Shown piece by piece: positions 9,135 to 30,242 of a DNA stretch of 32,754 nt (position 1 is its first letter; every line of letters starts with the position of its first letter). The position numbers and the translations under genes were made by a program. The stretch is taken from NCBI GenBank assembly GCA_020719385.1, contig DYQK01000021.1:4432-37185 (forward strand). Reading direction: 5' to 3'. The DNA comes from Rikenella microfusus. GTDB taxonomy: Bacteria; Bacteroidota; Bacteroidia; Bacteroidales; DYQK01. Below the pieces are notes generated by a model. The model made no database searches. It saw nothing but the letters and a program-made list of their open reading frames with translations, and was not told the origin of the DNA.

Positions 9135-9171
9135 ATAGCAGTGCTTAACTTTGATTAACAAAATGACAACG

Positions 9172-9203
9172 CAAATTTAAACAGTTTTTTTCAAATTTCC
9201 AAA
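9172..9203 (-). promoter_or_regulatory. Promoter of the methyltransferase gene
   Basis: On the minus strand TTTG (9203-9200), a 20-bp spacer and TAAATTTG (9179-9172) fit the Bacteroidota consensus exactly. The -7 element sits in the string GTTTAAATTTGCGTT, which also occurs at the promoters near 14722 and 15191. Confidence 0.65.
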
Positions 9204-9218
9204 TTTTTCAGTGAAAAC

Positions 9219-9253
9219 AAAATAAAATTTCGAGAAATTTTATTTTCTCGAAA
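9219..9253. promoter_or_regulatory. Two overlapping, mutually exclusive inverted repeats
   Basis: A 13-bp dyad (9219-9231 with 9234-9246, 2-bp centre) overlaps a 10-bp dyad (9228-9237 with 9244-9253, 6-bp centre). The two cannot form together. They lie between the divergent methyltransferase and gldA promoters and cover the place where a -33 element of gldA would be. Confidence 0.4.
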
Positions 9254-9261
9254 AAATTTCT

Positions 9262-9269
9262 TATTTTTG
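9262..9269 (+). promoter_or_regulatory. -7 promoter element of gldA
   Basis: TATTTTTG lies 19 bp before the ATG at 9289. No TTTG or TTG is placed 18-20 bp upstream; that position is covered by the overlapping inverted repeats. Confidence 0.55.
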
Positions 9270-9288
9270 CTCTCTAAAAACGCAAAAA

Positions 9289-10191: not shown

Positions 10192-10203
10192 ACATTTTTT
10201 GAT

Positions 10204-10881
10204 ATGAAAAAAATCTTAGGAATTTTGTTTTGTATTGCGTTGTCAATACAAATTTCTGTCGCACAGTCGCAGGCAAGTTATTCTGATTATTCCCCCTCGC
10301 AGAAGAATAACATTTTTTATGACGATTTTAGCGACAACAGTAAAAGTTGGACTACGGGAGAGAACGGAACATTTAACCGCTCCGCAGGCACTTACACCTG
10401 GAAAGACCACAAAAACGGCGGTTGGGTAGTAACAAAACAATCCGTTTCGATTGATTATCAACGCGATTTCGAAATCGAATATTACGCAAAATTTCACATC
10501 GCCGATATTTACGGTTCAATATTTTTGTTTTGGGGAACAAATTATAACCAATCTCACACGCTCGGCATTACGGGATATCCGTTTTACGCAATGGGAACTT
10601 ACGGCAGTTTCACAAAATTTTCGAAAAATTATGAAAAGTTAAAAAACATTGAATTTTCGCGTTTTAATAAAGTCACTTTGCGAAAAGTTCGAAATCGGCT
10701 GTATTTTTTTATGAATGAAATGTATATTTTTGAAACTGAACACACTCCCGAAAGAATTTCGGAAGTTGGTTTAATGCTTTCAAATAAAAATGCTATTGAG
10801 TTGGATTATTTTCGAGTTTCTTATCTCGGTGGACGAAGTTCGTCTGTCGATTTAGACGACAACGGCGAGCCAAGTCGATAA
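10204..10881 (+). CDS. Secreted beta-rich protein with a concanavalin/DUF1080-like domain, function unknown
   Basis: The 225-residue protein has a signal peptide (about residues 1-20, ending SVAQ). The rest is beta-rich and resembles the jelly-roll domains of DUF1080 and related glycan-binding or glycoside-hydrolase proteins: FYDDFSDN-SKSW at the start, aromatic strands in the middle (DFEIEYYAKF) and a terminal ELDYFRVSYLG strand. I see no catalytic motif. There is no T9SS sorting domain, so it probably stays in the periplasm or is attached in another way. It follows gldA by 12 bp and ends at a strong terminator, so the two are likely one operon. Confidence 0.65.
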   Translation: MKKILGILFCIALSIQISVAQSQASYSDYSPSQKNNIFYDDFSDNSKSWTTGENGTFNRSAGTYTWKDHKNGGWVVTKQSVSIDYQRDFEIEYYAKFHIADIYGSIFLFWGTNYNQSHTLGITGYPFYAMGTYGSFTKFSKNYEKLKNIEFSRFNKVTLRKVRNRLYFFMNEMYIFETEHTPERISEVGLMLSNKNAIELDYFRVSYLGGRSSSVDLDDNGEPSR

Positions 10882-10889
10882 AAAAATCT

Positions 10890-10918
10890 AAAACCATCTT
10901 TCGCAAGATGGTTTTTTT
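10890..10918. terminator. Bidirectional intrinsic terminator
   Basis: An 11-bp stem (10890-10900 with 10905-10915) with loop TCGC is followed by a T run to 10918. An A run on the other side gives T on the minus strand, so it can also serve the convergent M1 peptidase gene that ends at 10928. Confidence 0.85.
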
Positions 10919-10927
10919 GTGAAATTT

Positions 10928-12829
10928 TTACACAAAAATCGAACTGACAAATTGCAACAAATTTTCTGTCCAAAATAAAAATTTCACTAAATATTTCCAT
11001 CTCGCTGCGGAATTATTTTCTTGCGAAAGAGAATTATTTTGCAAATTTATATCTAAAAAATTTTTCTGAAATGGGTCAATTTTTGCCCACAAAATCGCAC
11101 TTTTTTCATTATAACGAAATGTTTTTGTCCGAGATTTTCCATCCCATTTTTCTAAAATTTCTTTTCCATTTTCGAAGTGTACTAAAATTTCAACAGGAAA
11201 TGTTATCTCACCCATTCGATGCAAAATTATCTCTGAATCGTGAATTTTTGCCATTTTATAATCACAAATATTTGTCCCGTATAAAACTTGATAAAAAAAC
11301 CAATTCAAATCGGCACCCAATTTTTCGTTATGCGATTCGGCAAGCGTTTCGTTTATTGTCGCAATAAAATCCTCGCCGCAAGGATGTTTAAACTTCCATT
11401 TCTCGAAATATTTTCGAAAAATTTTGTCCATCGTCTCGCTGCCAATATTTTTTTCCAATGTTTTTAACCAAACAAGCGGCTTGTAATAACTCAAAACGGC
11501 ATAACTATTTTCTGAAAATTCCCAAGATTTTAACGAAGTCTCTGCGATTTTCGGATTTTCTGCGAAAGTATACAAATTTTTTTGAAAATCGAAAGTTCCA
11601 ATTTTTAAACCAAACATCTCAAGCAAAGAAGTTTTTTCGCCGAAATATTCGTTCATAATTTGCGTTTCGAAATAGGTCGTAATTCCTTCGTCCAGCCAAG
11701 CCTCTTCAAACTCGTTAGTCGCAACCAAAGACATAAAATATTGATGCGTAAACTCGTGAATTGTAACCAATTCCAAAAAACGAAAATTTTGCGGATTTCC
11801 GACAAAAACTTCACCGACAACCAACATCGGATATTCCATTCCTGCCGAATTATAGCCCGAAAACGGCGGACTAATCAACGTTATGACAGGATGAGGATAT
11901 TTTCCGAGATTTTTTGACAAAAAATTCATTGATTTCTCTATTGCCGAGAAATATCTTTGAGCGAAATGTTCGTGTTCAGGAAAAAGTAAAACCTTGATTT
12001 TCACATCGTTATAATTTTTCTCGAAGACTTCAAAAAGCGGCGAAGCGGCAAAAGCAAAATCAATAACCGAATCTGCTTGAAAAGTTAAAGTTTTTGTTTT
12101 TCCTAATATTTGTTCATTTTTCAACATTCCTGTTGCACCGACAACAAAGTTTTGCGGCACAGAAATATTCACTAAATAATTTCCAAAATCTGCGTAAAAT
12201 TCACTATTTCGGTGATATTGATGACAATTCCATTGTCCTTTTTGTGCGAAACGCATTCCTGCGGGTTCGTAAACGCCGATTTTCGGAAACCATTGCCCGA
12301 TGAGAAAATAATCTTGCGAAAAACCACTTCGAGCAATGATTTTTGGAATTTTCGAAGAAAAATGAATTTTTATTTTCGCAATTTTTTCGGGAAAAATAAA
12401 ATTTTTTAACGAAACTTTCGCAACCGTTTGGTCGTCAGGGTTAGAATCATCGGGAGAAATAAACTGCAAAGCAGAAGTTAAATTCTCTTCAAAAGTCGAA
12501 TCAAAATGAATCAAAGACAAAATTTCGATATTGCCCCAAAGGTCTTTGTCGTTGATATTCAAATCGTTAACACCTCTTTCCTGCAAAAATGTTGACCGAG
12601 AATTTTTAAACGCATTCCAATACAAATGAAATTGCAATTCTTTAATTGTGTCTTGCGAGGGATTTTTCCAAAATAAAATTAAATTTCCTTCGAGAGTTTT
12701 CCTCTCTGCGTCAAGTTTCGCATCTATTTGATAATTAGCAATTTGCACCGAATTTACTTGCGGCAAAAGCGGCTGCGAAAAACAATTTAACGAGATAAAA
12801 ATCGAAATTATTGAAAAAAAAGTTTTCAT
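10928..12829 (-). CDS. Secreted M1-family zinc metallopeptidase (aminopeptidase N-like)
   Basis: The 633-residue protein has a signal peptide (about residues 1-18, ending NCFS). The N-terminal half is the beta-saddle domain seen in M1 peptidases. The gluzincin site is complete: H358-E359-F-T-H362, with the third zinc ligand E381 eighteen residues after H362 in an AWLDEG segment, and a GYNSAGMEYP segment before it that corresponds to the family's GAMEN substrate loop (here SAGMEYP). It should release N-terminal residues from peptides outside the cytoplasmic membrane. It starts 3 bp after the stop of the MORN-variant gene and so is probably co-transcribed from the promoter near 14722. Confidence 0.88.
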   Translation of the reverse strand: MKTFFSIISIFISLNCFSQPLLPQVNSVQIANYQIDAKLDAERKTLEGNLILFWKNPSQDTIKELQFHLYWNAFKNSRSTFLQERGVNDLNINDKDLWGNIEILSLIHFDSTFEENLTSALQFISPDDSNPDDQTVAKVSLKNFIFPEKIAKIKIHFSSKIPKIIARSGFSQDYFLIGQWFPKIGVYEPAGMRFAQKGQWNCHQYHRNSEFYADFGNYLVNISVPQNFVVGATGMLKNEQILGKTKTLTFQADSVIDFAFAASPLFEVFEKNYNDVKIKVLLFPEHEHFAQRYFSAIEKSMNFLSKNLGKYPHPVITLISPPFSGYNSAGMEYPMLVVGEVFVGNPQNFRFLELVTIHEFTHQYFMSLVATNEFEEAWLDEGITTYFETQIMNEYFGEKTSLLEMFGLKIGTFDFQKNLYTFAENPKIAETSLKSWEFSENSYAVLSYYKPLVWLKTLEKNIGSETMDKIFRKYFEKWKFKHPCGEDFIATINETLAESHNEKLGADLNWFFYQVLYGTNICDYKMAKIHDSEIILHRMGEITFPVEILVHFENGKEILEKWDGKSRTKTFRYNEKSAILWAKIDPFQKNFLDINLQNNSLSQENNSAARWKYLVKFLFWTENLLQFVSSIFV

Positions 12830-12832
12830 TTT

Positions 12833-14692
12833 TTACTTTTTTAATTCAGGGATTCCGTTTTTAAATTCTTTTTTTGAGACAACTTTGCCGTATTTGTCGT
12901 ACTGAATTTCGAAACCGTGTTTTTTGCCGTTTAGATAAAAAATCTCGGTTTTGGGCTTGCCGTTTGGGAAAAATTTAGTGAATTTGCCGTCTTTGAGATT
13001 ATTTTTGTAATTTATCTCGCTTTCGAGAAATCCTTGTTCGCCCCAAGTTTGACTTAATCCGTCTTTTTTGCCCTTTTTAAACGATTCTTTTCGCAACATT
13101 TGTCCTTGCTCGGAGAAAAATGCCCAAATTCCATCTTTTAAACCCTCGAAATAATTGCCGCCGCAAATTTGTGTTCCGATTTCATTAAATTCGATATAAT
13201 TGCCGTGATATAAACCCTGTTTGTAATTTTCGGCTTTTCGCAGTTTTCCTGTTTCGAAATAAAAAACTGATTTTCCATTTTTTATTCCGTCAAGATATTC
13301 GACTTCGTACAATTTTACTTCATTTTCTGTCCATTCTGTCCATTTTTTCGTCATTTTTCCGTTGTTAAAATCGCCTTCGATTTTTTTGCTTCCGTTTTCG
13401 AACCACGAGACCCAATGTCCGTCTTCTTTGCCGTTTGCGAAATAACCTTCGCTATATTTTTGTCCGTTTTCATAAAAAGTTGTCCATAAACTGTCTTTTT
13501 GTCCGTTTTTGTAAAACCCGATTTTCCAAATTGCGTTTGGTTTAACTTTGTAATTGAGAGGTTTAAAAACTGTGTCTGCACCGAAAAAAATCATTGTTCC
13601 GAGTTTTTGCGAAACTTTAACCGTGTCAAAACCGTACCAATATGTCCATTTTCCGTTCATTTCGCCGTCTTTGTAAAAACCTTGATTTCCGATTTTGCCG
13701 TTTTTTTTCCAATAAGTCCATTTTCCTGTTTGAACGTCATTGTCAAATTCGCCTTCCATATCTTTGAAACCGTTTTTTTGCCACCAAATCGCTTTTCCGT
13801 CTTTTTTGTCATTATTGAAAAAAATTTCAAATTCGGGTTTTCCGTCTTGATAAAATTGCGAATGTTTTCCCGTTTTTAAACCGTTTTTATATTCGCCTTG
13901 CATCTGCAAATTTCCGTTTTCGTATCGAAAAACCCAAAAACTATCTCTTTTTTCGTTGAAAAGTTTGCCTTTCATTGCTATGATTCCGTTTTCGAAATAT
14001 TCGATATTGAGTCCGTTTTCATAATTTAACTCGCTTTTTAACTTTCCATTTTCGAAAAAAGTGTTCCATTTTCCTGTTCTTTTTCCATTTTTGTAATTTC
14101 CTTTTGCGAAAACTTTGCCGTTGGAATGAAAAAAAGTCCATTCTCCTTCTTCGCGTCCATTTTTTAAACTTCCTTCTTGCCGTTTTTGATTATTGGGGTA
14201 AAAATCGTAAAAAATTCCGTTTCCATCTTTGACAATTTGTTTTCCTTCGTTGTTCCAAGCGTTTAAAATTTTAGAGGAATCATCGGAGAAATAATATTTT
14301 TCCTTGATTTTTAGCCCTTTTTCGTTGTAAAAAATCCATAAACTGTCTTCGAGTCCCATTTTATAGAATCCGTTTTCCTTGACTTGACCGTTTTCGAAGA
14401 AAGACTGAAAAGTTCCGTATTGAACGTTGTAACGATATTCTGCTTCGAATTGTTTTTTGCCGTTTGCGTAGAAATACGTGAGTTTTCCGTGAACAACGCC
14501 GAAGAGGAATTCTGTTTCCTGAATTTTTTCTCCTTTTTCGTTCCACGAGGTCCATTTGCCGATTTCATCGCCGTTGCGAAGTTTTCCTTGACGTTTTTTC
14601 TGTTTGTTTTTCCAAAATTCGGTAACCAACGAATCTTGAGCGGCAGATAAAAATGAAAAGAAAATCAAAAAAATTGCGAAAAATGTTTTCAT
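12833..14692 (-). CDS. Exported MORN-variant (YwqK-type) repeat protein
   Basis: The 619-residue protein has a signal peptide (about residues 1-18) followed by about 23 imperfect repeats of roughly 22-24 residues with the pattern W-x3-[FY]-x2-NG-K-x4-G-x-[FY]-K-NG-x3-G. These are the YwqK/MORN-variant repeats that form an extended beta-hairpin rod. One repeat near residues 360-400 is interrupted by a longer insert (around FDTVK...LNYKVKPN). Such proteins in Bacteroidota are surface or periplasmic and of unclear function; some Ywq relatives are antitoxin-like, but nothing here suggests that. It forms an operon with the M1 peptidase gene. Confidence 0.85.
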   Translation of the reverse strand: MKTFFAIFLIFFSFLSAAQDSLVTEFWKNKQKKRQGKLRNGDEIGKWTSWNEKGEKIQETEFLFGVVHGKLTYFYANGKKQFEAEYRYNVQYGTFQSFFENGQVKENGFYKMGLEDSLWIFYNEKGLKIKEKYYFSDDSSKILNAWNNEGKQIVKDGNGIFYDFYPNNQKRQEGSLKNGREEGEWTFFHSNGKVFAKGNYKNGKRTGKWNTFFENGKLKSELNYENGLNIEYFENGIIAMKGKLFNEKRDSFWVFRYENGNLQMQGEYKNGLKTGKHSQFYQDGKPEFEIFFNNDKKDGKAIWWQKNGFKDMEGEFDNDVQTGKWTYWKKNGKIGNQGFYKDGEMNGKWTYWYGFDTVKVSQKLGTMIFFGADTVFKPLNYKVKPNAIWKIGFYKNGQKDSLWTTFYENGQKYSEGYFANGKEDGHWVSWFENGSKKIEGDFNNGKMTKKWTEWTENEVKLYEVEYLDGIKNGKSVFYFETGKLRKAENYKQGLYHGNYIEFNEIGTQICGGNYFEGLKDGIWAFFSEQGQMLRKESFKKGKKDGLSQTWGEQGFLESEINYKNNLKDGKFTKFFPNGKPKTEIFYLNGKKHGFEIQYDKYGKVVSKKEFKNGIPELKK

Positions 14693-14782: not shown

Positions 14783-15154
14783 TTAACTTGTCAGCCATTC
14801 CAATGCGTCTTCTCGCTTAGAGAACCCTTTGATGTTGGTTTTTGCGAAAAAATTCACTGCGTTTAACAACATACTTTTGGCATCAGATATTCCAATGACT
14901 GCCATTTTTTCAGTTATTTTTTTGGTGCGTGAGGCGGCTTCCTTGAATTTTAACAAAACGCGTCCATTTATGAAGCAGTTGGTTACATCAATTAAAATTA
15001 ATAAGTTTGTTCCTTGTTTGAAATCGTATAAAATTCCTTCTTCAATGAGGGACGAAACCGAGTTAATCTCGGATTTTTCGTCATCTACTAAGCCGCTGTA
15101 ATTGTTGAAAATCACCTTTTTCCTGTTATAAAGACCTGTAAAAAAGCGTTCCAT
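14783..15154 (-). CDS. STAS/SpoIIAA-like protein
   Basis: The 123-residue protein resembles the SpoIIAA-like/STAS-SEC14 family: an N-terminal strand pair (KKVIFNNYSGL), a helix, a central strand LLILIDVTNC, an amphipathic helix, the strand MAVIGISDAK and a final helix with DALEWL. It lacks a signal peptide. Family members are small cytoplasmic or membrane-associated regulators of uncertain function; related STAS proteins act in partner switching. The gene is divergent from the receiver-PP2C phosphatase gene, with both promoters inside 110 bp, which makes a functional link plausible but unproven. The start is the ATG at 15154, 34 bp after a -7 element. Confidence 0.65.
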   Translation of the reverse strand: MERFFTGLYNRKKVIFNNYSGLVDDEKSEINSVSSLIEEGILYDFKQGTNLLILIDVTNCFINGRVLLKFKEAASRTKKITEKMAVIGISDAKSMLLNAVNFFAKTNIKGFSKREDALEWLTS

Positions 15155-15167
15155 AAATATTTGTTAA

Positions 15168-15203
15168 AAAATTTTGATTTTAAAACGCAAATTTAAACAT
15201 TTT
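15168..15203. repeat. 36-bp direct repeat carrying a promoter, copy 2
   Basis: The string is identical to 14699-14734 and contains TAAATTTG on the minus strand (15195-15188) upstream of the STAS-like gene. The sequence upstream of it differs from copy 1 and has no clear -33 element. Confidence 0.8.
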
Positions 15204-15204
15204 A

Positions 15205-15234
15205 TTGAAAAAAATAAAATATTTTTTATCTTTG
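15205..15234 (+). promoter_or_regulatory. Promoter of the receiver-PP2C phosphatase gene
   Basis: TTG at 15205-15207, a 19-bp spacer and TATCTTTG at 15227-15234 fit the Bacteroidota consensus. The ATG at 15265 follows about 30 bp later. It is back to back with the promoter of the STAS-like gene. Confidence 0.65.
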
Positions 15235-15264
15235 CAAATATTTTTCAAAAATTTTTGTGCAAAA

Positions 15265-16449
15265 ATGAAAACTGACAAAATTTTAGTTGTTGAAGACCAA
15301 CCCGATATTTTAGAGTTAATCACGAATATTATTGAATATTCCGATATTGTTGAAAAGGTTTTTGGGGCAACAAACGCTCAGATGGGTATGAATATTGCGG
15401 TGAAGGAGCAGCCGAATCTTATCATTTCAGATTGGTATATGCCCGATATTTCGGGAATTGAGTTTATTCGGCGGTTGAAAAATCATTCGCTGACAAGAGA
15501 TATTCCGATAATTATTTGCACAGGAATAATGGATTCGTCTTATCATTTGAAAATTGCCCTTGACTCGGGTGCGGCAGATTTTATTCGCAAACCTATTGAT
15601 AGAATCGAGTTAATTGCCCGAATGCAGTCAGTTTTGAAATGGGCAAAATTGTACGATTTTACGAAACAACAAAAAGCAATTATTGAAAATAGTCATCGCG
15701 AGATTACCTCAAATATCACTTATGCGAGCCGAATTCAAAATGCAATTTTGCCGACAGAGGAGAATTTGCAAAGCGTTTTGAAGAATTATTTTATTTTTTG
15801 GAAGCCACGCGATATTGTTTCAGGCGATTTTTATTGGGCGACAAAAATTGGAAATTATATAATTCTTGCAGTTGCGGACTGCACAGGTCACGGCGTTTCG
15901 GGAGGATTTCTGTCAATGCTTGGAATTGCGTTTTTAAACGAGATAATTTATCGCAAAAATCTTGTTTCTGCTTCAGAAATTTTAGAGGAAATGCGGGCAA
16001 AAGTTAAAAATCTTCTCAAACAGACAGGAAATACTCACGAGGCAGGAGATGGAATCGATATGGCTTTGTGTATTTTAGACACAGAGGAAAATATTTTGCA
16101 ATTTTCAGGTGCAAACTTGCCCTTAATTTTGATTCGCAATAACGAGTTAATCGAGTTTCACCCAACGAGAAATCCGTTAGGAATTTATCTTTTAGAGAGA
16201 AATTTCGAGAATCATATTATTCCGTTGCAAAAAAATGATGTAATTTATTTGTTCTCAGACGGTTATGTTGACCAATTTGGAGGAGAAAACGGCGATAAAT
16301 TTATGACTCGCAAGTTTAAAAATTTACTTCTCTCGATTCATTCTTTCGAAATGAGTGAGCAAAAAACAATTTTAGAAAAAACACTTTTCGAATGGATGGG
16401 AAAACATAAACAAATTGACGATATTTTTGTTTTAGGTTTCAAAATTTAG
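15265..16449 (+). CDS. Response regulator with C-terminal PP2C (SpoIIE/RsbU-type) phosphatase
   Basis: The 394-residue protein has a receiver domain (about residues 4-125, acid pair E10-D11, phospho-acceptor D56 in SDWYMPD, and a RKP motif near 108). A coiled segment (about 130-175, ending ASRIQNAILPTEE) links it to a PP2C-like phosphatase domain (about 180-394). The metal-binding acidic motifs are present: SGDFYW, ADCTGHG, DGIDMAL and SDGYVDQ. It should be a phosphorylation-controlled serine/threonine phosphatase of the RsbU type, which normally acts on STAS-domain proteins. The frame is open to 15205, but the fold begins at the ATG at 15265 and the promoter excludes the earlier start. Confidence 0.87.
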   Translation: MKTDKILVVEDQPDILELITNIIEYSDIVEKVFGATNAQMGMNIAVKEQPNLIISDWYMPDISGIEFIRRLKNHSLTRDIPIIICTGIMDSSYHLKIALDSGAADFIRKPIDRIELIARMQSVLKWAKLYDFTKQQKAIIENSHREITSNITYASRIQNAILPTEENLQSVLKNYFIFWKPRDIVSGDFYWATKIGNYIILAVADCTGHGVSGGFLSMLGIAFLNEIIYRKNLVSASEILEEMRAKVKNLLKQTGNTHEAGDGIDMALCILDTEENILQFSGANLPLILIRNNELIEFHPTRNPLGIYLLERNFENHIIPLQKNDVIYLFSDGYVDQFGGENGDKFMTRKFKNLLLSIHSFEMSEQKTILEKTLFEWMGKHKQIDDIFVLGFKI

Positions 16450-17508: not shown

Positions 17509-17982
17509 ATGGAAAACTCAAATAAAATTACTTATTTGTCTTTTGTCTTGGGTGAGGAAATTTTCGCTGTCAATGTGGGCAAGGTGTTGGAAGTTTTGGA
17601 ACATCAAAAAATCACGCGAGTCCCAAAAACGCCGTCATATATCAAAGGAGTAATTAATTTTCGCGGTGAAATTTTGCCCGTCATTGACACGCGTCTGAAA
17701 TTAAATCTTGCCGAACAACAAATTAATGATAAAACCGTCATTATTGTTTTAGACCTAAAAGTTAAGGATAAATCGGTGATATTAGGTGCAATGGCAGATT
17801 CGGTGAAGGATGTTATTGAGATTCACGAAAACGAAATCCGCGATGTTCCCGATATTGGAAACCGATATAATGTTGAGTTTCTGCAAGGAATGGTGAAAAT
17901 TGAGAATATTTTTGTAATGTTATTGAACGTTGATAAAGTTTTTCTGTCAGACGAACAACAGCAACAAATTGTTGTCGAATAA
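17509..17982 (+). CDS. cheW: CheW-type chemotaxis adaptor
   Basis: The 157-residue protein is a single CheW domain: the first strand ITYLSFVLGEEIFAV, the motif EVLEHQKITRVPKTPSYIKGVINFRGEILPVID (about residues 28-60) that is diagnostic for the family, and the second subdomain ending MVKIENIFVMLLNVDKV. It should couple receptors to CheA through the P5 domain; CheA is encoded 11 kb upstream. It is the first gene of the run that continues through the restriction-modification gene and the two chemoreceptors. I see no clear promoter before it, so read-through from the nuclease gene is possible. Confidence 0.88.
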   Translation: MENSNKITYLSFVLGEEIFAVNVGKVLEVLEHQKITRVPKTPSYIKGVINFRGEILPVIDTRLKLNLAEQQINDKTVIIVLDLKVKDKSVILGAMADSVKDVIEIHENEIRDVPDIGNRYNVEFLQGMVKIENIFVMLLNVDKVFLSDEQQQQIVVE

Positions 17983-18056: not shown

Positions 18057-21000
18057 ATGACTGAATTTTTAGAATATATCGAATCTTTACAAAGCGATTC
18101 TTTGGAAAATATCACAGAACATTCTAAACGTTCTGCGTTAGAAATGTTGTTGAAAAAATTTGCCGAAAAATCAGTTAACTTTGGCAGAATCAAGGTTTTA
18201 CACGAACCAAAACGCAAAGAAAATTACGGTGCGCCCGACTTTTTAGTCAACGTAGATTACGCAACGGTGGGCTATGTTGAGAATAAAAAATTGACAGAGA
18301 ATCTCGAAAAAACGTTAAAAACGCCGCAAATTTTCAAATATCGCGAGTTGTGCAAAAATATTATTCTCACCAATTATCTCGATTTTTACTGGATTTTTGG
18401 AGAAAATATTGAGAAAGTTTCGCTTTGCGAGATTTCAGATTTAGAGAGTAAACATTTTATTCCTGACAAAGAAAAGTGCGAAAGAATTGAGAATATGTTG
18501 CTAACCTTCTTTGCTCAAGTGCCGCAATACATTGATAATACAACAGATATGGCTGTTGCTCTTGCGAATCGATGTAAAAATTTGAGAGTATTTCTCACCA
18601 ACGAATTGTTTCATCAAACCACAGAATTGCAGGAAGGCAGACTTCACGATTTATACAGCGTTTTTCAGAAACACATTTTTAACGAATTGACTATCAAGCA
18701 GTTCGGCGATTCCTTCGCACAAACTCTCGTCTACGGACTTTTTCTTGCCAAATTAAACGCAAAAGAAAATATTTTGTCTCTGAAAAATGCAAAAAATTTC
18801 ATTTCAGCAACATTTCAGTTAATTCACGAGTTAGTTGCGTTTCTTGAGGAATTGGACAAACCCGAATATCGCGAGGCAAAATGGATTGTTGATGAGATTT
18901 TAAGTATTTTTAACTATCTCAACGTTGAAAAAATTCAGGAATCCCTGTCGTTCAACAAATTTGAAGACCCTTATATTTATTTTTATGAGGATTTCTTATC
19001 TGTCTACGACCCCGAATTACGTAAGGCGAAAGGCGTTTATTACACACCAACGCAAATTGTCAATTTTATCATTCGCGTTTTAAACGACATTTTAATCTCA
19101 ACTTTCAATATTTCTGAAGGTTTTGCAGCGAAGGACAAAGTTACCGTTCTCGATTTTGCCACAGGAACAGGAACATTTCTGATGGAAATTTTTAAACAAA
19201 TTCTCAATAATGAAACTTTTGCCCCGCAAAAAAATAAAATTATCAGCGAACATTTGCTGAAAAACATTTTTGGGTTTGAATGTCTTATTGCTCCTTATAC
19301 GGTTGCTCATCTCAAACTTTCGCAATATTTGAAGGAAAGCGGCTATGAATTTTTGTACGGCGAGAGAATGCAAATATTTCTCACAAATACGCTTGAACCT
19401 GTTGAATTACAAGGAAGAATTCCGTTTTTGCCTGCCATCACGCACGAGGTAAAACAGGCACAAAATATCAAAGATAAACCTGTTTTAGTCATTACAGGAA
19501 ATCCGCCGTATTCTTATCGTTCACAAAATACGGGAAAATGGATTAGCGAAAAAATCCGAAATTATTATTTTGTTGACGGCAAACCTTTGAAAGAAAAAAA
19601 TTCGAAAGGTTTACAAGACGATTATGTGAAGTTTATCCGTTTTGCCCAAAATAAAATGGACAATGTTGAACAAGGTGTCGTTGGGATAATTACGAATCAT
19701 TCGTTTTTGGACAACCCAACATTTCGCGGAATGCGGCAAAGTTTAATGAAAACTTTTGACCAAATTTATTTTATCGACCTGCACGGAAATGCCCGCAAAA
19801 AAGAGAAATCTCCCGAAGGAAAACCTGACAAAAATGTTTTTAAAATTATGCAAGGCGTTTGTATCTCGATTTTTATCAAAAAAAGAGATATGGAAAAAAA
19901 GATTTTTCACACTGATTTTTGGGGAATAAAAAAAGAGAAATTAGATTTGTGTTTAAATAATTCTTTGCAAACCGTTGATTTTCAAGAGATTAAACCGAAT
20001 TCACCTTTTTATTTTTTCGTTCCGCAGAATCAGGAAAATCGAAAAGAATATGATAAATTTTGGTCAGTCAAAGATATTTTCGATGTTTGTAGTATTGGAA
20101 TAACTTCGGCAAGAGATAAATTTACAATTCACGTTAAACGCGAGAAATTGATAAAAACAATTCGCGATTTTGTCAATATTTCGGAATCCGATGCGAGAAA
20201 AAAATATAATCTCGGCAAAGATACGCGAGATTGGAGAGTTTTGTTTGCTCAAAATGATTTGAAAAATAATTTTTTCAGAAAAGGAGAAGCATACGTTATG
20301 GATGTTAGCAAAATAAAAAAAATCGCGTACAGACCTTTCGATTTTCGATATACTTTTTACACGGGAAAAACTTGCGGTTTTCATTGTATGCCGAGAAAAA
20401 ATGTAATGAAACATATGGAAAAGCCGAATATTGCGTTAATAACGGTGCGACAAATGGTTATTGCATCGGGAAGATGGCGACATGTTTTTGTCAGCAATAC
20501 TTATACTTCTGCTTATCTTGTTGGTTCGACAAATTATGTTTTTCCGCTTTTTTATTATAATGGAAGTAGTGGGAATTCAACGAGTTACCTGTTTAAAGAA
20601 AATGATAAACGCGATAATTTCACTGAAAAATTTCGCAATTTTTTCAAAAATCTTTTTGGGACAAAAGTTTTAGACAAAACGCAAATTTCTGAAATTGAGA
20701 AATCAATTAAGGAATTGAAAAAACAACAGAAAAAAATTGAGAAATTAATCTCTGATTCTGAAAAAAATAAATTCCCCGATGAAATAATTATCGGACAAAA
20801 ACAACTTTTTGAAGAGTTAAAAACGCAAATTGACTCTAAGAATAAAGAATTGGAGAAATTTTCGACAGAAAATTCTGAAGTAAATTTTTCACCTGAACAA
20901 ATTTTTGCGTACATTTATGCGGTTTTGAACAGCAATTTGTATCAAAAAAAATATTTGGAGTTTCTCAAGATGGATTTTCCCAAAATTCCGTTCATAGAAA

Positions 21001-21377
21001 ATATCGAAATTTTCGAAAAATTATCAACTTTGGGACAATCTTTGATAGATTTACATTTGTTTGATGTTGCTAAAATTTCTTCGAAATTTAAACATCTCGG
21101 CAAATTCAAGGGCGAAGGCAATTTCTTCGTTACAAAAATAGAATTTCTCGATTCGAAACTTTTTATCAACGAGAGTCAATATTTTGAAAATGTTTCGCAA
21201 GAAATTTTCGATTTTTGCGTAGGAAATTGTAAAATTTTGGAAAAATATTTGCAGAAAAGAAAAGAAATTTCTATCTTTGAGAGTTTCGAAGAAGTCGAAA
21301 ATATCGTTCAAATAATTGCTGAAACTATTGAAATTTCAAGCGAAATTGATGATTTGGTTACAGCATTTTTACTTTGA
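18057..21377 (+). CDS. Type ISP-like (type IIG-type) restriction-modification fusion enzyme
   Basis: The 1106-residue protein combines restriction, methylation and specificity. The N-terminus has a PD-(D/E)XK-like nuclease pattern P60-D61 ... E75-N-K77 in a GYVENKK strand. The N6-adenine methyltransferase core has the helper YYTPTQIV, motif I D366-F-A-T-G-T-G372 and motif IV N482-P-P-Y485. The C-terminal third matches the type ISP specificity domain (VLFAQND... YRPFDFRYTFYTG... MPRKNVMKHM). Unlike LlaGI-type enzymes it has no helicase domain, so it is a shorter variant. Residues ~872-945 form a long charged coiled coil that breaks up the specificity region. It lies between cheW (74 bp) and the first chemoreceptor (23 bp), on the same strand. 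Confidence 0.82.
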   Translation: MTEFLEYIESLQSDSLENITEHSKRSALEMLLKKFAEKSVNFGRIKVLHEPKRKENYGAPDFLVNVDYATVGYVENKKLTENLEKTLKTPQIFKYRELCKNIILTNYLDFYWIFGENIEKVSLCEISDLESKHFIPDKEKCERIENMLLTFFAQVPQYIDNTTDMAVALANRCKNLRVFLTNELFHQTTELQEGRLHDLYSVFQKHIFNELTIKQFGDSFAQTLVYGLFLAKLNAKENILSLKNAKNFISATFQLIHELVAFLEELDKPEYREAKWIVDEILSIFNYLNVEKIQESLSFNKFEDPYIYFYEDFLSVYDPELRKAKGVYYTPTQIVNFIIRVLNDILISTFNISEGFAAKDKVTVLDFATGTGTFLMEIFKQILNNETFAPQKNKIISEHLLKNIFGFECLIAPYTVAHLKLSQYLKESGYEFLYGERMQIFLTNTLEPVELQGRIPFLPAITHEVKQAQNIKDKPVLVITGNPPYSYRSQNTGKWISEKIRNYYFVDGKPLKEKNSKGLQDDYVKFIRFAQNKMDNVEQGVVGIITNHSFLDNPTFRGMRQSLMKTFDQIYFIDLHGNARKKEKSPEGKPDKNVFKIMQGVCISIFIKKRDMEKKIFHTDFWGIKKEKLDLCLNNSLQTVDFQEIKPNSPFYFFVPQNQENRKEYDKFWSVKDIFDVCSIGITSARDKFTIHVKREKLIKTIRDFVNISESDARKKYNLGKDTRDWRVLFAQNDLKNNFFRKGEAYVMDVSKIKKIAYRPFDFRYTFYTGKTCGFHCMPRKNVMKHMEKPNIALITVRQMVIASGRWRHVFVSNTYTSAYLVGSTNYVFPLFYYNGSSGNSTSYLFKENDKRDNFTEKFRNFFKNLFGTKVLDKTQISEIEKSIKELKKQQKKIEKLISDSEKNKFPDEIIIGQKQLFEELKTQIDSKNKELEKFSTENSEVNFSPEQIFAYIYAVLNSNLYQKKYLEFLKMDFPKIPFIENIEIFEKLSTLGQSLIDLHLFDVAKISSKFKHLGKFKGEGNFFVTKIEFLDSKLFINESQYFENVSQEIFDFCVGNCKILEKYLQKRKEISIFESFEEVENIVQIIAETIEISSEIDDLVTAFLL

Positions 21378-21400: not shown

Positions 21401-24400
21401 ATGTTTAAAAAAATGAAATTAAAAACCCGCATTTTTGCCTCAATTTGCGGAATTGTCAGTTTTGCATTTGTCTTGGTTACTTTTACCGTTGCAACAAACT
21501 CGATTCGAAGCGCAAGAGAATCAGCATTTAACGAGGCAAAATCTCTTGCAAGTGAACACGCAACAGCCGTTGACAGCGAATTTGAAGTAAATATGCTTGC
21601 CACAAGAACCGTTGCACAGGTTTTCGAAAATCTGCGAAATAACGGTTTCACAGACAGAAAAACTTTCGACGACATACTCAAAAGTGTCTTAGAGGAAAAC
21701 GACAACTTCCTCTCTGTCTGGAGCATTTGGGAACCAAACGCATTAGACGACAACGACAAACGTTTCGTCAACACAACTTACGGCAACGAAAAAGGCAGAT
21801 TCACAACTGCTTGGTATCGAACAGGACCCAAAACCGTTGAGAGACAAGTAAATCCAGAACCCTCACCTGCGAGCGAATATTTTACAACCATCAAAGTCGG
21901 CGAAGAAGTAATGGTTAATCCGTATTATTACAAATACGAAACTCGTAATGATTCAGTTTTGGAAACCAGTGTTGTGGTGCCGATAAAAAATAAACGCGGC
22001 AAAGTTTTTGGAGTCGTTGGAATCGATATTGAACTTTCGAAGTTTCAGGAAATGGTCGAAAAAATTCGCCCCTACGAAACAGGAACAGCAGTTATTTTGT
22101 CCAACAATTCAACAATTGTCAGTTCAACGAAAAAAGACAGAGTCGGGAAAAATTTGAATCTCGTTGATAGTCTCGAAAATAAAAGCAGTTTGAAACCGTT
22201 TAATGTTGAGTCACAAATAAAATTGGGCAATACTTTTTCCTTTAACACTTTTAATTCGCTTTCAAGTTCAGAAAATCATTTTATTTTTGTGCCGTTTCGG
22301 GTCGGAAAAACTAAAATGCCCTGGTCTTTTGGCATTTCCGTGCCGATGAATAAAATTATGGAAGACGCAAACAGAGCGATTCTTTATACAATTATCATCG
22401 GAATTTTGTGTATGCTTGGGTTAATTTTAGTCATTTATTGGTTGACGAGAAATATTGAAAAAATTATCAATAAATTAATCAACGAAACTAAAAACCTTAC
22501 CGATGAGGCAAGTAAGGGCAATTTCAAGATTCGGGGCAATGTCGAAAATATTGATAACGAATTTCAACCAATTATTGTCGGAATAAATAAAACGCTAGAC
22601 ACAATTATTGCGAAAACATTTTGGTACGAAACTATATTAGACTCAATACCGCTTCCCATTTCGGTTACCGATTCAGAGTTAAAATGGACGTTCTTCAACA
22701 AAGCCGCCGAAGGATTAGCACACATAAAACGCGAAACACATATCGGTCAACATTGTAATAATTGGGGTGCAGATATTTGTAACAACGAAAATTGCGGAAT
22801 TAAACGGTTGCAGCAAGGAATAACTAAAACTTTTTTCAAACAAGAAGCCTCAAATAAAAATTATCAAGTTGATGCTGCTTTTTTGAGAGACGAGAAAGGA
22901 AATATTATCGGGCAAATCGAAATTGTGCAAGATATTACTCATATGCAGAGAGTTGCAGAATTTAACGAAGTTGAAGTCAATAAACTTCTCGAAAATCTGA
23001 GTTTTATCTCCGAAGGACGTATAAAAATAGACTCGAATGTTACTCCTGTAGACGAATATACGCAGGAAGAATTTGCGAAGTTCACAAAAATTTATCAATA
23101 TTTAACTGTCACCGTCGAATCTATGCAGTTGTTGATTTATGATACGATTGCGATAAGTAAAAGCGCCACAGCAGGTGATTTGGCAAACATAAAAATTGAT
23201 CTCTCGCGTCATAAAGGCGATTATGCAGTCGTAATGAAATCGTTGAACAAAGTTTTCGAAATGATTATTAGGCCCCTGCGTCAGGGAAGTATAATTTTGG
23301 AACAACTCGCAAGCGGCGAATGGGTTGAGGAAATTGATTCGTCTACTTATAAAGGTGATTTTAAAATTTTTATGGAAAGCATGTCGATGATTCGAAATTC
23401 TATAAAAACTTTGTTTAACGAACTTTCGCAACTCATCGACCAAATTTCTGTCGGAAATTTAAAAACTGTTTGCGAAACAAATTTGCTGCAAGGTTTTTAT
23501 AAAGATATTTTATTCGGCATAAATCAAACTGTCGAGGCAATTGTTACTCCGCTGAACAAAAATGTCGATTATTTGCGAAAAATCTCGAAAGGAGAAATCC
23601 CCGAACGAATCACAGAAAATTATCAAGGCGATTTCGAACATTTTAAAAATGCGTTAAATCGTTGTATTGATGCGTTAAATGGAATTGTTGAAAACGTTAA
23701 AACGTATATTTCCTTCGCACAAGCAGGAAAAATTAACGAAATTAATTTTGAAACAGACAAATATCAAGGCGTTTTTGCCGATATTATGTCGGGACTCAAT
23801 ATTTCTGCACAGGCAACCGCCACGCCGATAAACGAAATGATTGACATTTTGAATCGAATTGCAAAAGGAGACTTGTCGAAAACCGCTGAAGGAAATTATC
23901 AAGGAAAATTTATTGAAATGAAAAGTGCCTGCAACACTTCAATTACTGCGTTAAAAAGAATGCAAAATTATTTAACCAACACCATCGAAGCGTTAAAAAT
24001 CGGCGATATTGACTCGCGTTGCAGCACGGAAAATTTGCAAGGTGTTTATTTCGATTTGTTAAACGGCACAAATCAAGCCATCGAAACCATTGTTACTCCC
24101 GTAATTGAAGGGACAACAATTTTAAACGAATACGCAAACGGCGAATATCACAGAGAAATGCGAGATTTAGTCGGAAAACAAGTCGTCTTTTCAGATAGTA
24201 TTAAGTTGATTCGCAACAACTTAATGATTTTGATTCAAGATACGATGCAACTTTCTATCTTCGCTGCCGAAGGAAAATTTGACAAACGAATCGAAATCGA
24301 GAAATACAAAGGAAATTATGCCGTTATTGCTAAAAGTTTAAACAAACTTTTTGACAATATTATTTCCCCAATTAATTATGCGAAAAATTGGATAAAAGCA

Positions 24401-26029
24401 CTCTCCGAAGGAGAAATGGTCGAAAAAATTGAGGTAGAAAATTATAAAGGTGAATTTAAAATTTTTATGGAAAACCTCGATTTGATTAGAGAATCCATCG
24501 ATATTTTGCTTGACGAAATTTTGATGGTCATAAATCACACGGCAGAAGGAAAATTGAACTATCGCTGCGAGGCAAAACGCTTAAATGGTTTTTATCTGTC
24601 TATTTTAGAAGGCGTAAATGCCACTCTTGACGCAATTATTTCGCCGCTTTATGTAATGGCAGGATTTATTGAGAAAGTTTCAAAAGGCGAGGAATTAAAA
24701 CCAATTACAGACCAATATAACGGCGATTTTAATATTATCAAAAATAATATTAATGTTTGCGTTGAGATAATTTATAAACTTATCAATGAAATTAACTCGT
24801 TGATAAAAAGCACGTTAAACGGAAATCTCAAAACGAGAATAAAATCTAATGAATATCAAGGAAATTGGGAAGTTATTGGAAAAGGAATCAACGAAACACT
24901 CAACGCACTTACCGACCCGCTCTCGGTTACAAGTCAATATTTAACGAAAATCTCGAAAGGTGAACTTCCTCCGACTATTTCTCAAGAGTACAAAGGTGAA
25001 TTTAACTCGTTTAAAAATTCGATTAACTCTTTAATTGAAGCGTCAACGTTAATTGTTGAGAAATCGAAGTTAATTTCTCAAGGACATCTTGATATTGAAC
25101 TGCAGAAACGTTCTGACAAAGATGAATTAATAGAATCCTTCACAGAAATGGTAAAAACAATTTCGAAAACCGTTTCAAATGTTGCCTCCGTTTCGAATAG
25201 CATTGCCGAAGCATCGCAAAGTATGAATCAGATGGCACTCAACATGACGCAAGGGGCTAATGAACAAAGTTCGTCTACCGAGGAAGTTTCCTCTTCGATG
25301 GAAGAAATGGCGGCGAACATAAATCAAAATACTGAAAATGCTTTGTTGACTGAAAAAATTGCTCTCAAAGCGGCTCAAGATATTCTCAAAAGCAATAAAT
25401 CTGTTATGTCAACGGTTGAGTCAATGAGAAATATCGCTGAAAAAATTAAAATTATTTCTGAAATTGCCCGCAAAACCGATTTGCTTGCCATCAACGCTGC
25501 CATCGAAGCCGCTCGCGCAGGCGAACACGGAAAAGGTTTCGCCGTAGTGGCAACGGAAGTGCGAAAGTTAGCCGAAAGAAGTCAAACCGCCGCAGACGAG
25601 ATAAACAAAGTTTCGAGTCAGAGTGTGAAAATCGCAGAGGAATCAGGAAAATTGTTGTCTGAAATTGTGCCAGATATTCAAAATACGGCAAAATTGGTTC
25701 AAGAAATTGCCGCTGCAAGTCGCGAACAAAATACAGGTGCCTCGCAGGTCAATAATGCGATTTCGCAACTGAATCGAGTAACGCAGCAAAATTCTGCTGC
25801 CGCAGAAGAACTCTCAACAAGTGCAGAGGAACTTGCCTCGCAAGCCGACCAACTTTTACAATCCATCTCGTTTTTTAAAATGAAAATGGAGAAAGAAATT
25901 TCTCAAAAAATCTCGTTGAATAAAAAAAATCCGTTAATTTTGCGATGCGAAACTAAACGTTCTACCAATTTAAAAGGAGTAACTTTAATTCTTGACGACG
26001 AAAATGACCAAAATTATGAAAAATTTTAA
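21401..26029 (+). CDS. Methyl-accepting chemotaxis protein with dCache, PAS and about 17 HAMP units
   Basis: The 1542-residue receptor has TM1 (about 12-33), a periplasmic double-Cache-like sensor (about 35-320, with [16 protein letters not shown] and [12 protein letters not shown] segments), TM2 (about 327-347), one HAMP unit, and a PAS domain (about 406-512) containing C452, C460 and C465 in an [17 protein letters not shown] context. A tandem array of about 16 further HAMP units (about 523-1263) leads to a complete MCP signalling hairpin (about 1265-1490) whose tip reads [26 protein letters not shown]. Methylation-type EE pairs are present ([21 protein letters not shown]). The C-terminus ends NYEKF. 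I start at the ATG at 21401; a TTG at 21389 and an ATG at 21413 are alternatives. It follows the restriction-modification gene by 23 bp. Confidence 0.88.
22970..25190 (+). repeat. Tandem HAMP array of the first chemoreceptor (about 16 units)
   Basis: The array consists of units of 43-47 residues, each with two amphipathic helices around a G-[DENK]-[ILFW] turn. Units of two alternating types (GExP...YxGDF and GNLxxR...LNGxY) occur in pairs of about 91 residues. One unit has a unique G-K-Q insert (about 24100-24230). Confidence 0.75.
25472..25586 (+). repeat. 115-bp near-identical segment shared with the second chemoreceptor, copy 1
   Basis: The segment encodes the signalling-domain tip. It matches 29691-29805 at 108 of 115 positions without gaps, and six of the seven differences are synonymous. 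Confidence 0.8.
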
Positions 26030-29000
26030 TATCGAAACCGTAAAAAACTTTTTCTCGCAGCGACAAAATCGATTACTCGTTTATTATTTTGTGATTTTGC
26101 TGCTTTTAACCTACTTTTTTTCAGATAGTAAATGGACAAGCAACATTCATTTGCATACGATTTTCGATTTGTCTGCGACATTTTTTATTTTTGTCAGTGG
26201 GTTAATCTCGTTTATTTATTTTTCCACAACGAAAAAAGAAGTTTATTTATTTCTCAGTGCAGCCTTTCTCGGTACAACATTGCTTGATTTATATCATACA
26301 ATTGTGCCGTCAGAATGGTTTATTAACCGTTTTCCAGAAACACCTGCGGCAGTCATTGGGTGGAGTTGGCTCGCTCCACGTTTATTTCTCGCCGCTGTAC
26401 TTTGTTTTTGTGCATTTTTTTACCAAAAAAAGAGAGAATTATTCCCAAACAAAACGACTCAACATAAAATCAAAGTTGTTTTTGGAACAATTTTTCTTGC
26501 TTCAATAATATTTTTCGTATTTTTTGCGTTAGTAAAATTGCCTTCCGCATACAATTCGAACTTTTTTATTCACAGAGTGCAAGAATTTTTGCCCGCAATG
26601 TTGTTTATCATTGCGTTTTGGGGTTTTGCAAAAAACGGAATCTCGCAAAAAAAACATTTCGAGTATCTTTTGTTGTTTGGAATCATTACAAATATCGTAA
26701 TCCAAACTTTTGTAATGCCTTTTTCCCATCAACCTTATGATTTTTTCTTTGATTTTGCTCATGTTTTAAAAATTTTGAGTTACTTTCTCATTATGGGCGG
26801 ACTTTTGGGTGATATTTCTGAACGTTTTAAACTGCTCGAAGTGCGAAAAGAAACCGTTTTGAATTGCGAAACAAAGTTTCGGTCTATTTTTGACTGCGGA
26901 GTAGAGAACGCAGGAATCGAAATTATGCTTGAAGAAGCACTTATCCCGTTGAAAACGACTAACGAATATATTAAAAAACTTGCAAACGGCGAAATTCCGC
27001 CCCAAATTACCGCAGAATACAAAGGTGATTTTAATAAAATTAAAATTTATTTCAATTCTTTGATAGAAACTTTTACAGCAATGTTCTCGGAAACAGAAAA
27101 TCTTGCTAAAAATGCTGCTGACGGAAACCTCAAAATGAGAGCAGATATCTCAAAACATCAAGGAATTTATCAACAAATTATCAACAACTTCAATAAAACG
27201 CTTGATAATTGGAATCAACCAATTACATTGACCGCTACTTATCTCGAAAAAATTGCGAAAGGTGAAATTTCTGAACACATAAAAGAGGATTTCAAAGGCG
27301 ATTTTAACATTTTAAAAACGAATGTTAATTCTTGTATTGAGTCTTTGCACGGCGTTGTCGATTCCATCAACCTATATATATGGCTGATGCGAGGCGGCGA
27401 GATTGAGAAAATTAAATTTGACGCAAATAGTTTCGAAGGCGTTTACGGCGAAATTATCAACGGTTTAAACCTTGCCGCAGTCGCAGTTAATCAACCGTTC
27501 TCCGAGATAAACAACGTTTTAATCAATATTTCTCAAGGCGATTTGTCGAAAAAAATCGAAGGAAATTATGCTGGAAGTTTTTCTGTAATGAAAAATGCGT
27601 GCAATAAACTCGTCAAAACGCTAAATATTTTGCAGGACGAATTGAATTATGTTATCTCGCAACAAAAAGAAGGCGAATGGGACTCAAGATGCAACACTAC
27701 GCAAGTGTCAGGAATTTTTCATTCTCTACTCACAGGAATCAACGAAACGCTCGACGCCGTGGGACAACCTCTCAAAAACGGAATAACTATTCTCAACCAT
27801 TATGCAGACGGCGATTTTAACAAAACCATCCCAATTTTCAAAGGCAAACAACTCGAATTTTCTAATTCGTTAAATACTTTGAAAAACAATATGATTGCGG
27901 TAATGAAAGACTCAATGACAATGTTAAGCAACGCTTCGGCAGGAAATTTGAACGTTGTCATAGACCAAGAAAAGCACAAAGGCGGTTTCGGAATAATGAT
28001 AAAAAGTATGAACAAAATTTTTTCAACAATTTCAGAACCTTTGATATATGCGACAAATTGGGCAAAACGACTCGCAGCAGGTGAAAAAGTTGAGAACATT
28101 GAACTCGAAAAGTACAAAGGAACTTTCAGAGATTTGATGGAAAGTTTAAATTTAATTCACAAATCTATAGAAAATCTTTTGTCAGAAATATTCGCACTCA
28201 TCGAAAAAGCAGAAGCAGGAAATCTTAATTATCGCGCTAAAACCGAAGGTTTAAACGGAAATTACAATGAAATTTTAAACGGAATTAATAAAACTCTTGA
28301 TTCTATTGTTTCGCCGTTGCAAATTGCCGCCTCATATTTCGAGAAAATTGCGAAAGGACAAATCCCACAAAAAATCACCGAAAATTATAACGGAGATTTT
28401 GAAAATATTAAAAATAGCGTCAATAAATGTATTGAGGCAATAAATTTGTTGGTCAACGATACAAATTTTATCTCATCAGCCGCCGCTGAAGGCAATATTA
28501 TGATTCGAGGTAACACAGAAATTCATCAAGGAGAATTTAAGCAAATTATTTCGGGAATGAATCAGACACTTGACTCAATAATTTTGCCGTTCAATACTGC
28601 CGCAGAATATATTGATAACATCTCGAAAGGAATAATTCCGAAGAAAATCGACCAACAATACAAAGGCGTTTACAACATTTTGAAGGAAAATTTGAATCAA
28701 TGTATCGAGGCAATCAATGCTTTGACCGTTGATACGACTTATTTGTTGTTCTCAGCGGGAGAAGGAAAGTTAAACATCCGCGCAGACAGCACGAAACATC
28801 AGGGAAAATTTAAAAATATCATTGAAGGAGTGAATAAAACTCTCGATGCAGTTACAAATCCCGTTCTTACCTCTACGCAACTTCTCGACAAAATTGCGAA
28901 AGGTGAAATTCCGCAAAAAATTTCAGAAACTTATAGCGGCGACTTTAACGTGATGAAAAATGCGATAAATCAATGTATTGATACGTTAAATTTGCTTTTG

Positions 29001-30242
29001 TCAAGTATCAACGAATTTATTGCGTTTTCGAAACGCGGCGAACTGAACCAAATACGTTTTGAAACGAAAAATTTCGAAGGAATTTACAAAGCGATAATCG
29101 AAGGTTTAAATCAGTCTGCCGCTTTGATTTCTGCTCCCTTGGACAATATTACGAAAGTGTTGAATCGAATTGCTCAAGGTGATGTCAGCAATAAACTCAC
29201 AGAAAATTATTTCGGACAATTTAAGGTTTTAAAAGAAAGTGCGAACACGTTAATTGAGGCGGAACATTTAATTATTGAAACTTCGAAGCAAATTGCTGCG
29301 GGAAATCTTAACGTCAAGATACAAAAACGCTCGGAAAAAGATGAATTTTTCGATTCTTTTGGAAACATGGTGAAAACGTTGGTTTTTGCGTTAGAAAATT
29401 TTGCAGAAGCAGCACATAACATTGCGGAAACCGCCCAACAGATGAATAAAATGTCAACTTTTATGGCAGAATCTGCAAACAGACAGGCAACAGCCGCCCA
29501 AGAGGCTTCTTCTTCGATGGAAGAAATGGCGGGTAGCATCAGACAAAACACCGACAACGCAAAACAAACCGAATCTATCGCACTCAAAGCGGCTAATGAT
29601 ATTTTGAAAGGCAATAAATCTGTTGAGATAACATCAGAATCGATGAGAAATATCGTTGAAAAAATTAGAATCATTACAGAGATTGCGAGAAAAACCGATT
29701 TGCTTGCCATCAACGCTGCCATTGAAGCGGCTCGCGCTGGTGAACAAGGAAAAGGGTTCGCCGTAGTGGCAACGGAAGTGCGAAAGTTAGCCGAGAGAAG
29801 TCAAAATGCGGCAAATGAAATCAACGAAGTTTCACTTTCGAGTGTGCAAGTGGCTGAAAATTCGAGTAAATTGCTTTCGAAAATTGTTCCCGATATTCAA
29901 AATACCGCAAAATTAGTGCAAGAAATTGCCGCAGCAAGCAAAGAACAAGACTCTGGCGTTAACCAAATCAATTCTGCCATTCAATTATTGAACCAAATCA
30001 CGCAGGAAAATACTGCTTCTGCCGAAGAACTCTCGACAAGTGCAGATGTTCTTGCTGCTCAATCTGAAAAATTGTTGGAAATTCTTTCTCAATATAAGTT
30101 TAACAAAACTTTTGAAACTGAAAAACAAAAAAAACAAGAGAAAAAATTTATTGTTGAACAGACAAAAAAGAAAAATGTCACAAATTTTGGAGGAATAAAC
30201 TTAAAACTTGACGATGACGACTCAGAATTTGAGAAATATTAA
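26016..30242 (+). CDS. Methyl-accepting chemotaxis protein with an 8-TM sensor and 18 HAMP units
   Basis: The 1408-residue receptor starts with about eight membrane segments (residues ~20-265) that form a MASE-like sensor with conserved-looking [14 protein letters not shown] and [10 protein letters not shown] motifs; it has no large periplasmic domain, so it probably senses membrane-linked or hydrophobic signals or the energy state. After a short linker come 18 tandem HAMP units (about 311-1128) and an MCP signalling hairpin (about 1128-1360) almost identical at its tip to the first receptor. The C-terminus ends EFEKY. The frame extends back to a TTG at 25992; I prefer the ATG at 26016 (14-bp overlap with the first receptor gene), with 26004 as an alternative. 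It is a paralogue of the upstream gene. Confidence 0.86.
26947..29400 (+). repeat. Tandem HAMP array of the second chemoreceptor (18 units)
   Basis: Eighteen units of 43-47 residues run without interruption from the end of the membrane domain to the signalling domain. Units 3-11 match units 6-14 of the first receptor in order, and units 3-5 reappear as units 15-17 within this array. Confidence 0.75.
29691..29805 (+). repeat. 115-bp near-identical segment shared with the first chemoreceptor, copy 2
   Basis: The segment matches 25472-25586 at 108 of 115 positions. The only amino-acid change is H to Q at the hairpin tip (AGEHGKG against AGEQGKG). Confidence 0.8.

Follow-up and report, generated by a model that had tools for sequence, protein, structure and literature searches.

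How did two neighbouring chemoreceptor genes come to carry some 17 and 18 HAMP units each, and why should the units stand in the same order in both? HAMP relays are thought to work by switching between two conformers. A first-pass annotation of the locus proposed that a whole array had been duplicated, that the copies had then diverged at their ends and that the sensor domain had been replaced. We have followed up this proposal in the window, which is the whole stretch of 32,754 nucleotides, and in the 3.66 Mb draft genome it comes from (98% complete, 288 contigs). The sixty relatives drawn were all from the same order and all from outside its family and genus. We consider it likely that the two receptors, here called A and B, go back to an old tandem duplication of a long poly-HAMP chemoreceptor with a stalk built from two-unit modules, which would form a HAMP relay to CheA.

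The two receptors

The features of both receptors are collected in Table 1. Receptor A starts at a TTG, with an in-frame ATG also at 21401, and its hydropathy peaks at about residues 16-34 and 332-350 mark the two transmembrane (TM) segments. Receptor B, whose gene overlaps the 3' end of the receptor A gene, likewise starts at a TTG, with further in-frame ATGs at 26004 and 26016; its hydropathy profile has seven clear TM peaks, and an eighth segment is plausible. The signalling domain of receptor A matches that of Tsr (3zx6, E 6.9e-41) with a conserved hairpin tip, and the alignment has two 7-residue gaps, placed symmetrically with one in each arm. Since each arm lacks a heptad that the 36H receptor Tsr has, we assign receptor A to the 34H class, which is defined by having two heptads fewer than 36H.

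Table 1. Features of receptors A and B (window positions; numbers given for clades are branch supports)
Feature	Position	Strand	Evidence
Receptor A, dCache chemoreceptor, 1546 aa	21389..26029	+	ORF; Pfam dCache_1, PAS_4, HAMP_2, MCPsignal
dCache_1 periplasmic sensor, A	21608..22198	+	Pfam E 3.5e-14; TM1 and TM2 on either side
HAMP a0, between TM2 and PAS, A	22481..22612	+	Clade with c0 (C172a) and b12, 99
PAS domain, A	22637..22942	+	Pfam PAS_4 E 5e-8
HAMP array a1-a16, contiguous, A	22970..25183	+	Cut by hand and profile-tiled; units 43-52 aa
Unit pair a6-a7, common with b4-b5	23690..23962	+	a6-b4 97, a7-b5 97; missing there in C172 receptors
a9, GKQ unit, probable Aer2-HAMP3 (HAMP_N3) type	24098..24235	+	a9/b7/c7/d7 clade 100
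MCP signalling domain, A, 34H-like	25337..25837	+	Pfam PF00015 E 3.6e-33
C-terminal pentapeptide NYEKF, A, CheR/CheB tether motif xZxxZ	26012..26026	+	Sequence; definition in PMC7390727
Receptor B, MASE3 chemoreceptor, 1416 aa	25992..30242	+	ORF; Pfam MASE3, HAMP_2, MCPsignal
MASE3 multi-TM sensor, B	26133..26801	+	Pfam E 5.3e-16
HAMP array b1-b18, contiguous, B	26940..29402	+	Cut by hand and profile-tiled
Unit pair b4-b5, counterpart of a6-a7	27360..27632	+	Unit tree
b7, GKQ unit (probable HAMP_N3 type)	27768..27905	+	Pfam below cut-off; unit-tree clade 100
b12-b15, includes two units missing from A	28452..28997	+	Unit alignment
b16-b17, putative ancestral terminal pair, lost in A	28998..29273	+	With c14-c15 and d14-d15, 98 and 97
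MCP signalling domain, B	29550..30002	+	Pfam PF00015 E 1.2e-30
C-terminal pentapeptide EFEKY, B, CheR/CheB tether motif xZxxZ	30225..30239	+	Sequence; definition in PMC7390727

Composition and fold of the arrays

Cutting the arrays unit by unit gives 17 HAMP units in receptor A (a0, the PAS domain, then a1-a16) and 18 in receptor B (b1-b18), as the first-pass annotation had counted them; its array coordinates were right to within a few bases. The Pfam entry HAMP_2 (PF18947) matches eight stretches in A (E 4e-113) and nine in B (E 1e-163); in a genome-wide search it finds array units that the HAMP entry (PF00672) misses. Conserved glycines mark either end of the connector in the units, the interior units have no DExG motif, and a DE motif (KDEL/KDEF) occurs among array units in the last unit only. 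Two unit classes, D and P, alternate along the arrays. Units of the P class start with proline and follow the pattern ...KGEI..I.E.Y.GDF....

Array profiles match solved poly-HAMP structures, namely the histidine kinase 9trk (E 9e-33) and Aer2 (3lnr, E 2.6e-7, and 4i3m). A monomer model of b5-b10, of moderate confidence (pLDDT 69), has unbroken helices of 31-37 residues between connectors, which is what would be expected if AS2 of one unit continues into AS1 of the next. The top three Foldseek matches of this model are all Aer2 poly-HAMP structures (best E 0.024, probability 0.98-1.00). VIA-align rows were left out as evidence, since at Z 8-10 they mix Aer2 and helical bundles that are not related to it.

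The shared unit order is inherited

In our unit numbering, the colinear block proposed at 23557-24786 is a5-a13 (23549-24784) and the one at 27223-28460 is b3-b11 (27219-28451), and the GKQ units a9 and b7 stand opposite each other in the unit alignment. Counterpart units in the two blocks are 42% identical, against 29% for same-class units that are not counterparts. Since two-class alternation by itself lets any two arrays partly align, all tests of order were run within class. Aligned unit against unit, a5-a13 and b3-b11 have a summed score of 932, which 3 of the 2880 within-class re-pairings, all enumerated, reach; no other nine-unit diagonal scores higher. When unit order was shuffled 1000 times within class, no shuffle reached the score of the ordered alignment of the whole A and B arrays (z 4.2).

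A maximum-likelihood tree of 69 HAMP units, among them those of A, B and two further receptors described below, gives the same picture. Counterparts cluster across proteins rather than with the other units of their own protein, at a6-b4 (support 97), a7-b5 (97), a8/b6 (96), a9/b7 (100), a12-b10 (84) and a16/b18 (98). The units are only 43-52 residues long and the deep branches of the tree are therefore weak; units of the T5 type (a5, a13, b3, b11, b13 and b15) are too similar for the tree to resolve. Alternation and the near interchangeability of T5-type units are the two points that might suggest a convergent order, or one forced by alternation alone. Against the within-class shuffles, the exact re-pairings and the positional clades, we regard such an origin as extremely improbable and take the order to be inherited.

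A second pair and the history of the duplication

Contig C172 of the same genome carries a second adjacent, overlapping pair of poly-HAMP receptors, with 16 units each. Receptor C (C172a; 1540 aa) has dCache, HAMP and PAS domains before its array, and receptor D (C172b; L037:7766-11368, minus strand; 1200 aa) has two TM segments and a PAS domain. Receptor D stops shortly past the signalling helix and has no pentapeptide, whereas its neighbour ends in EYEKF. C and D match in unit order from end to end; each also aligns with A and B.

In a tree of signalling domains, A and B are split from the rest with a support of 90 and C and D group at 98; the four are set apart from the other receptors with a support of only 62. 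The receptor pairs on contigs C78 (100) and C168 (91) are also siblings, and this recurrence at several loci indicates that local tandem duplication is habitual among the receptors of this genome. The proposed whole-array duplication thus holds in that A and B are tandem duplicates with an inherited unit order. That order is not private to them, as the C172 pair has it too, and the view that divergence was simply at the ends is not supported: the internal pair a6-a7/b4-b5 is present in A and B and missing at that place in the C172 receptors.

The replacement of the sensor is also borne out, and Pfam confirms MASE3 in B and, in A, dCache and PAS. Since dCache, the following HAMP (a0/c0, support 99), PAS and a1-a2 (a1/c1, support 100) are common to A and C, MASE3 is most simply the newcomer. 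Judging from the sequences, the sensor, PAS domain and first units of B would have been replaced by MASE3, and the most likely ancestral architecture is dCache-HAMP-PAS-polyHAMP-MCP. At the other end, b16-b18 group with c14-c16 and d14-d16 (supports 98, 97 and 98). In the simplest history, the terminal pair b16-b17 was ancestral, a copy of it was inserted in mid-array in the ancestor of A and B, and the terminal pair was later lost in A. An older block duplication within the array itself is indicated by the resemblance of a2-a5 to a10-a13, at an offset of eight units in A and six in C. The comparison as a whole indicates that all four receptors would descend from one long poly-HAMP receptor, copies of which were tandem-duplicated at each of two loci.

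How old is the A/B duplication? The hairpins of A and B are 77% identical over 549 bp, and their fourfold-degenerate sites are 45% identical, compared with 35-39% in other pairs; elsewhere in the phylum, in genome G447, two neighbouring receptors have identical C-terminal parts. These observations would fit a recent duplication whose arrays were homogenised by gene conversion. However, A and B are only 38% identical in residues overall, their fourfold sites are far diverged (26% identity is expected at random), and same-class units within one array share 29-37% of their residues in A and B but 49-73% in the arrays of G447 and another genome, G219. On the diverged fourfold sites we reject a recent duplication, and we think recent copying followed by homogenisation very unlikely. 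The A and B arrays are, on their sequences, old, with each position individually diverged.

Array length changes two units at a time

In the preferred unit alignments among the four receptors all gaps are two units long, the unit before the PAS domain aside. The contiguous arrays of A, B, C and D have 16, 18, 16 and 16 units, all even; total parity differs, at 17 for A (a0 included) against 18 for B. To see how general the alternation is, we also took a census of unit junctions, tiling by profile a single Calditrichota locus and 40 regions that belong to other genomes of the phylum; the counts include this genome's own arrays, with receptor B counted twice. With G for the GKQ unit, the junctions are DP 138, PD 89, DG 20, GD 20, PP 4 and DD 1, so that 5 of the 272 junctions in the arrays examined are exceptions to the alternation. 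A first tiling pass trained on this genome's units only already gave the alternation. Because indels among the four receptors are of two units and the classes alternate strictly, we regard the di-HAMP as the module. A paired HAMP repeat is not new as such, since the tandem HAMPs of the fungal kinase CaNik1 have been described as pairs of 92 residues (PMC3848655). What may be new is how strictly different receptors keep to the pairing, and the part it plays in indels.

If successive units alternate in state, insertion or loss of a single unit would reverse the output and a two-unit change would not, which fits the indel pattern and suggests that the arrays lengthen and shorten in steps that leave the phase of the relay as it is. 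Strict alternation by itself forces even indels, so that the sign rule is not proven by them, and a structural packing need for alternation, with no inversion of sign, could explain the pattern equally well. Paralogues that have changed by two-unit modules, together with alternation across the phylum, provide natural variants for testing whether the sign alternates.

The GKQ unit was a further feature of the A/B order, and it had been described as odd. It appears instead to be of a known type, HAMP_N3 (PF18575), which we take to be the family of Aer2 HAMP3, and it is present in other genera. The idea that it is peculiar to this pair was ruled out by its presence in G447 and in the Calditrichota locus. 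The GKQ units of A, B, C and D form one clade (support 100); those of C and D score 40.7 and 33.1 bits against HAMP_N3, above the cut-off of 25.7, and those of A and B (a9, b7), at 18-19 bits, lie under it. A profile of the a8-a9-type pair matches residues 75-158 of Aer2 3lnr (HAMP2 and HAMP3; E 8.5e-8). In the census the GKQ unit always stands between two D units, in the place of a P unit, and the type is widespread.

A proposed relay, a possible spacer and the kinase context

In the receptor dimer, each HAMP unit would form a parallel four-helix bundle, with the bundles stacked end to end. Signals may pass from unit to unit as conformer changes, by analogy with Aer2, for which conformers of opposite signal have been described in HAMP1 and HAMP2 (PMC3570549), and the relay would end at the 34H signalling hairpin controlling CheA through CheW. 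Length may then change by pairs, since with a single unit more the hairpin would end up in the opposite phase of the relay. For adaptation, CheR/CheB would be tethered by the pentapeptides at the C-termini. The xZxxZ motif (Z = F, W or Y) is abundant in Bacteroidetes (PMC7390727), most other receptors of this genome carry a similar pentapeptide and CheR genes are present.

The window itself holds cheW (17509-17982), cheY and a CheA-like gene. The CheA-like protein (4974-6605, plus strand) has H-kinase_dim, HATPase_c and CheW domains; HPt is not matched in it, and none of the reading frames upstream could hold an HPt domain. The CheY gene (4487-4909) lies just before it. CheA-type ORFs on contigs C104 and C11 have, by eye, an HPt-like N-terminal sequence. 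A Type ISP restriction-modification enzyme (N6_Mtase, Type_ISP_C; 18057-21377, plus strand) is encoded between cheW and the receptors. At 14783-16449, a SpoIIAA-like protein (its match just under the cut-off) adjoins a response regulator that carries a SpoIIE-type phosphatase domain; the two may form a partner-switching pair next to the chemotaxis genes. The 619-aa protein at 12833-14692 (minus strand) consists, by eye, nearly entirely of MORN variant-like repeats (G.W..Y..NG......Y.NG). No flagellin gene was found, and the motility output is therefore probably not a flagellum.

The array might instead be only a spacer, its length setting the distance between the membrane and the kinase baseplate and giving these receptors a tall array of their own, apart from the short receptors. 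We estimated heights from a rise of about 2.5 nm per HAMP unit (half of the ~33-residue helix in the model) and from published distances of 17.5 nm for the signalling part of 36H receptors and 5.6 nm between PAS layers (PMC7184735); about 1 nm was subtracted for 34H, about 5.6 nm was allowed per PAS and a straight stalk was assumed. The membrane would then lie about 64 nm from the baseplate in A and C and about 61 nm in B and D, compared with about 19 nm for the one-HAMP receptors of the genome, and, given a straight stalk, such a height of ~60 nm would be exceptional. B is without the N-terminal HAMP, the PAS domain and two units, yet has four units absent from A, so that its total has hardly changed, and five CheA-type and four separate CheW matches allow for more than one array. 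On the other hand, the heights depend on the straight stalk and the monomer model, the four receptors, being paralogues, do not provide four independent lengths, and receptors of about 4, 8 and 9 units in the same genome fit neither height. A pure spacer is a tenable reading to which we assign somewhat less than even chances. A related and more doubtful proposal combines both roles: a separate array with its baseplate ~60 nm from the membrane, in which di-HAMP gain and loss matched the heights and kept relay phase and height alike. Such a baseplate would be far taller than described arrays. The relay remains our preferred reading.

Comparison with known systems

Long poly-HAMP chemoreceptors are already known as a kind; Dunin-Horkawicz and Lupas reportedly described HAMP arrays of up to ~31 units in 2010. 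Of 395 genomes of the phylum, 65 contain HAMP_2. In the regions fetched, 12 genomes other than this one have arrays of 8-19 units, counted with PAS insertions allowed. The longest of these is in G447 (19 units, 1515 aa); G219 has 14 units. A contig scan with the receptor B array found no relative, and one with an alignment of the four arrays found a single locus, in a Calditrichota MAG. The G447 and G219 receptors resemble A and B in D/P alternation, in their HAMP_2 units and, in some, in a GKQ unit. They differ in that their units are near-copies of each other, and those read have no pentapeptide. Like A and B, the G447 receptors are a neighbouring pair with different, swapped sensors (L073:3077-7624 and 7901-12544, minus strand), and their C-terminal parts are identical over more than 300 residues, suggesting a recent duplication or gene conversion there.

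Aer2 of Pseudomonas aeruginosa (PDB 3LNR, 4I3M, 4I44) also has contiguous divergent HAMPs and an MCP output, as well as a PAS domain between HAMPs, as in A, and its HAMP2-HAMP3 pair is the one matched by the a8-a9/b6-b7 pair. Unlike A and B, which are membrane proteins with other sensors, it is soluble and has 3+2 HAMPs. The group III hybrid histidine kinases (CaNik1, NikA and AskA/AskB of M. xanthus) have tandem HAMPs in pairs too, but have a histidine kinase output, no TM segments and fewer units (nine in CaNik1). Chemoreceptors of the Tar/Tsr type share the signalling hairpin and the C-terminal CheR pentapeptide, and are 36H proteins with one HAMP. What the present analysis usefully adds is a further pair of colinear receptors, the pattern of indels by two units and an identity for the GKQ unit. 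What is distinctive in A and B is that each array position has kept its own identity and that the arrays change two units at a time.
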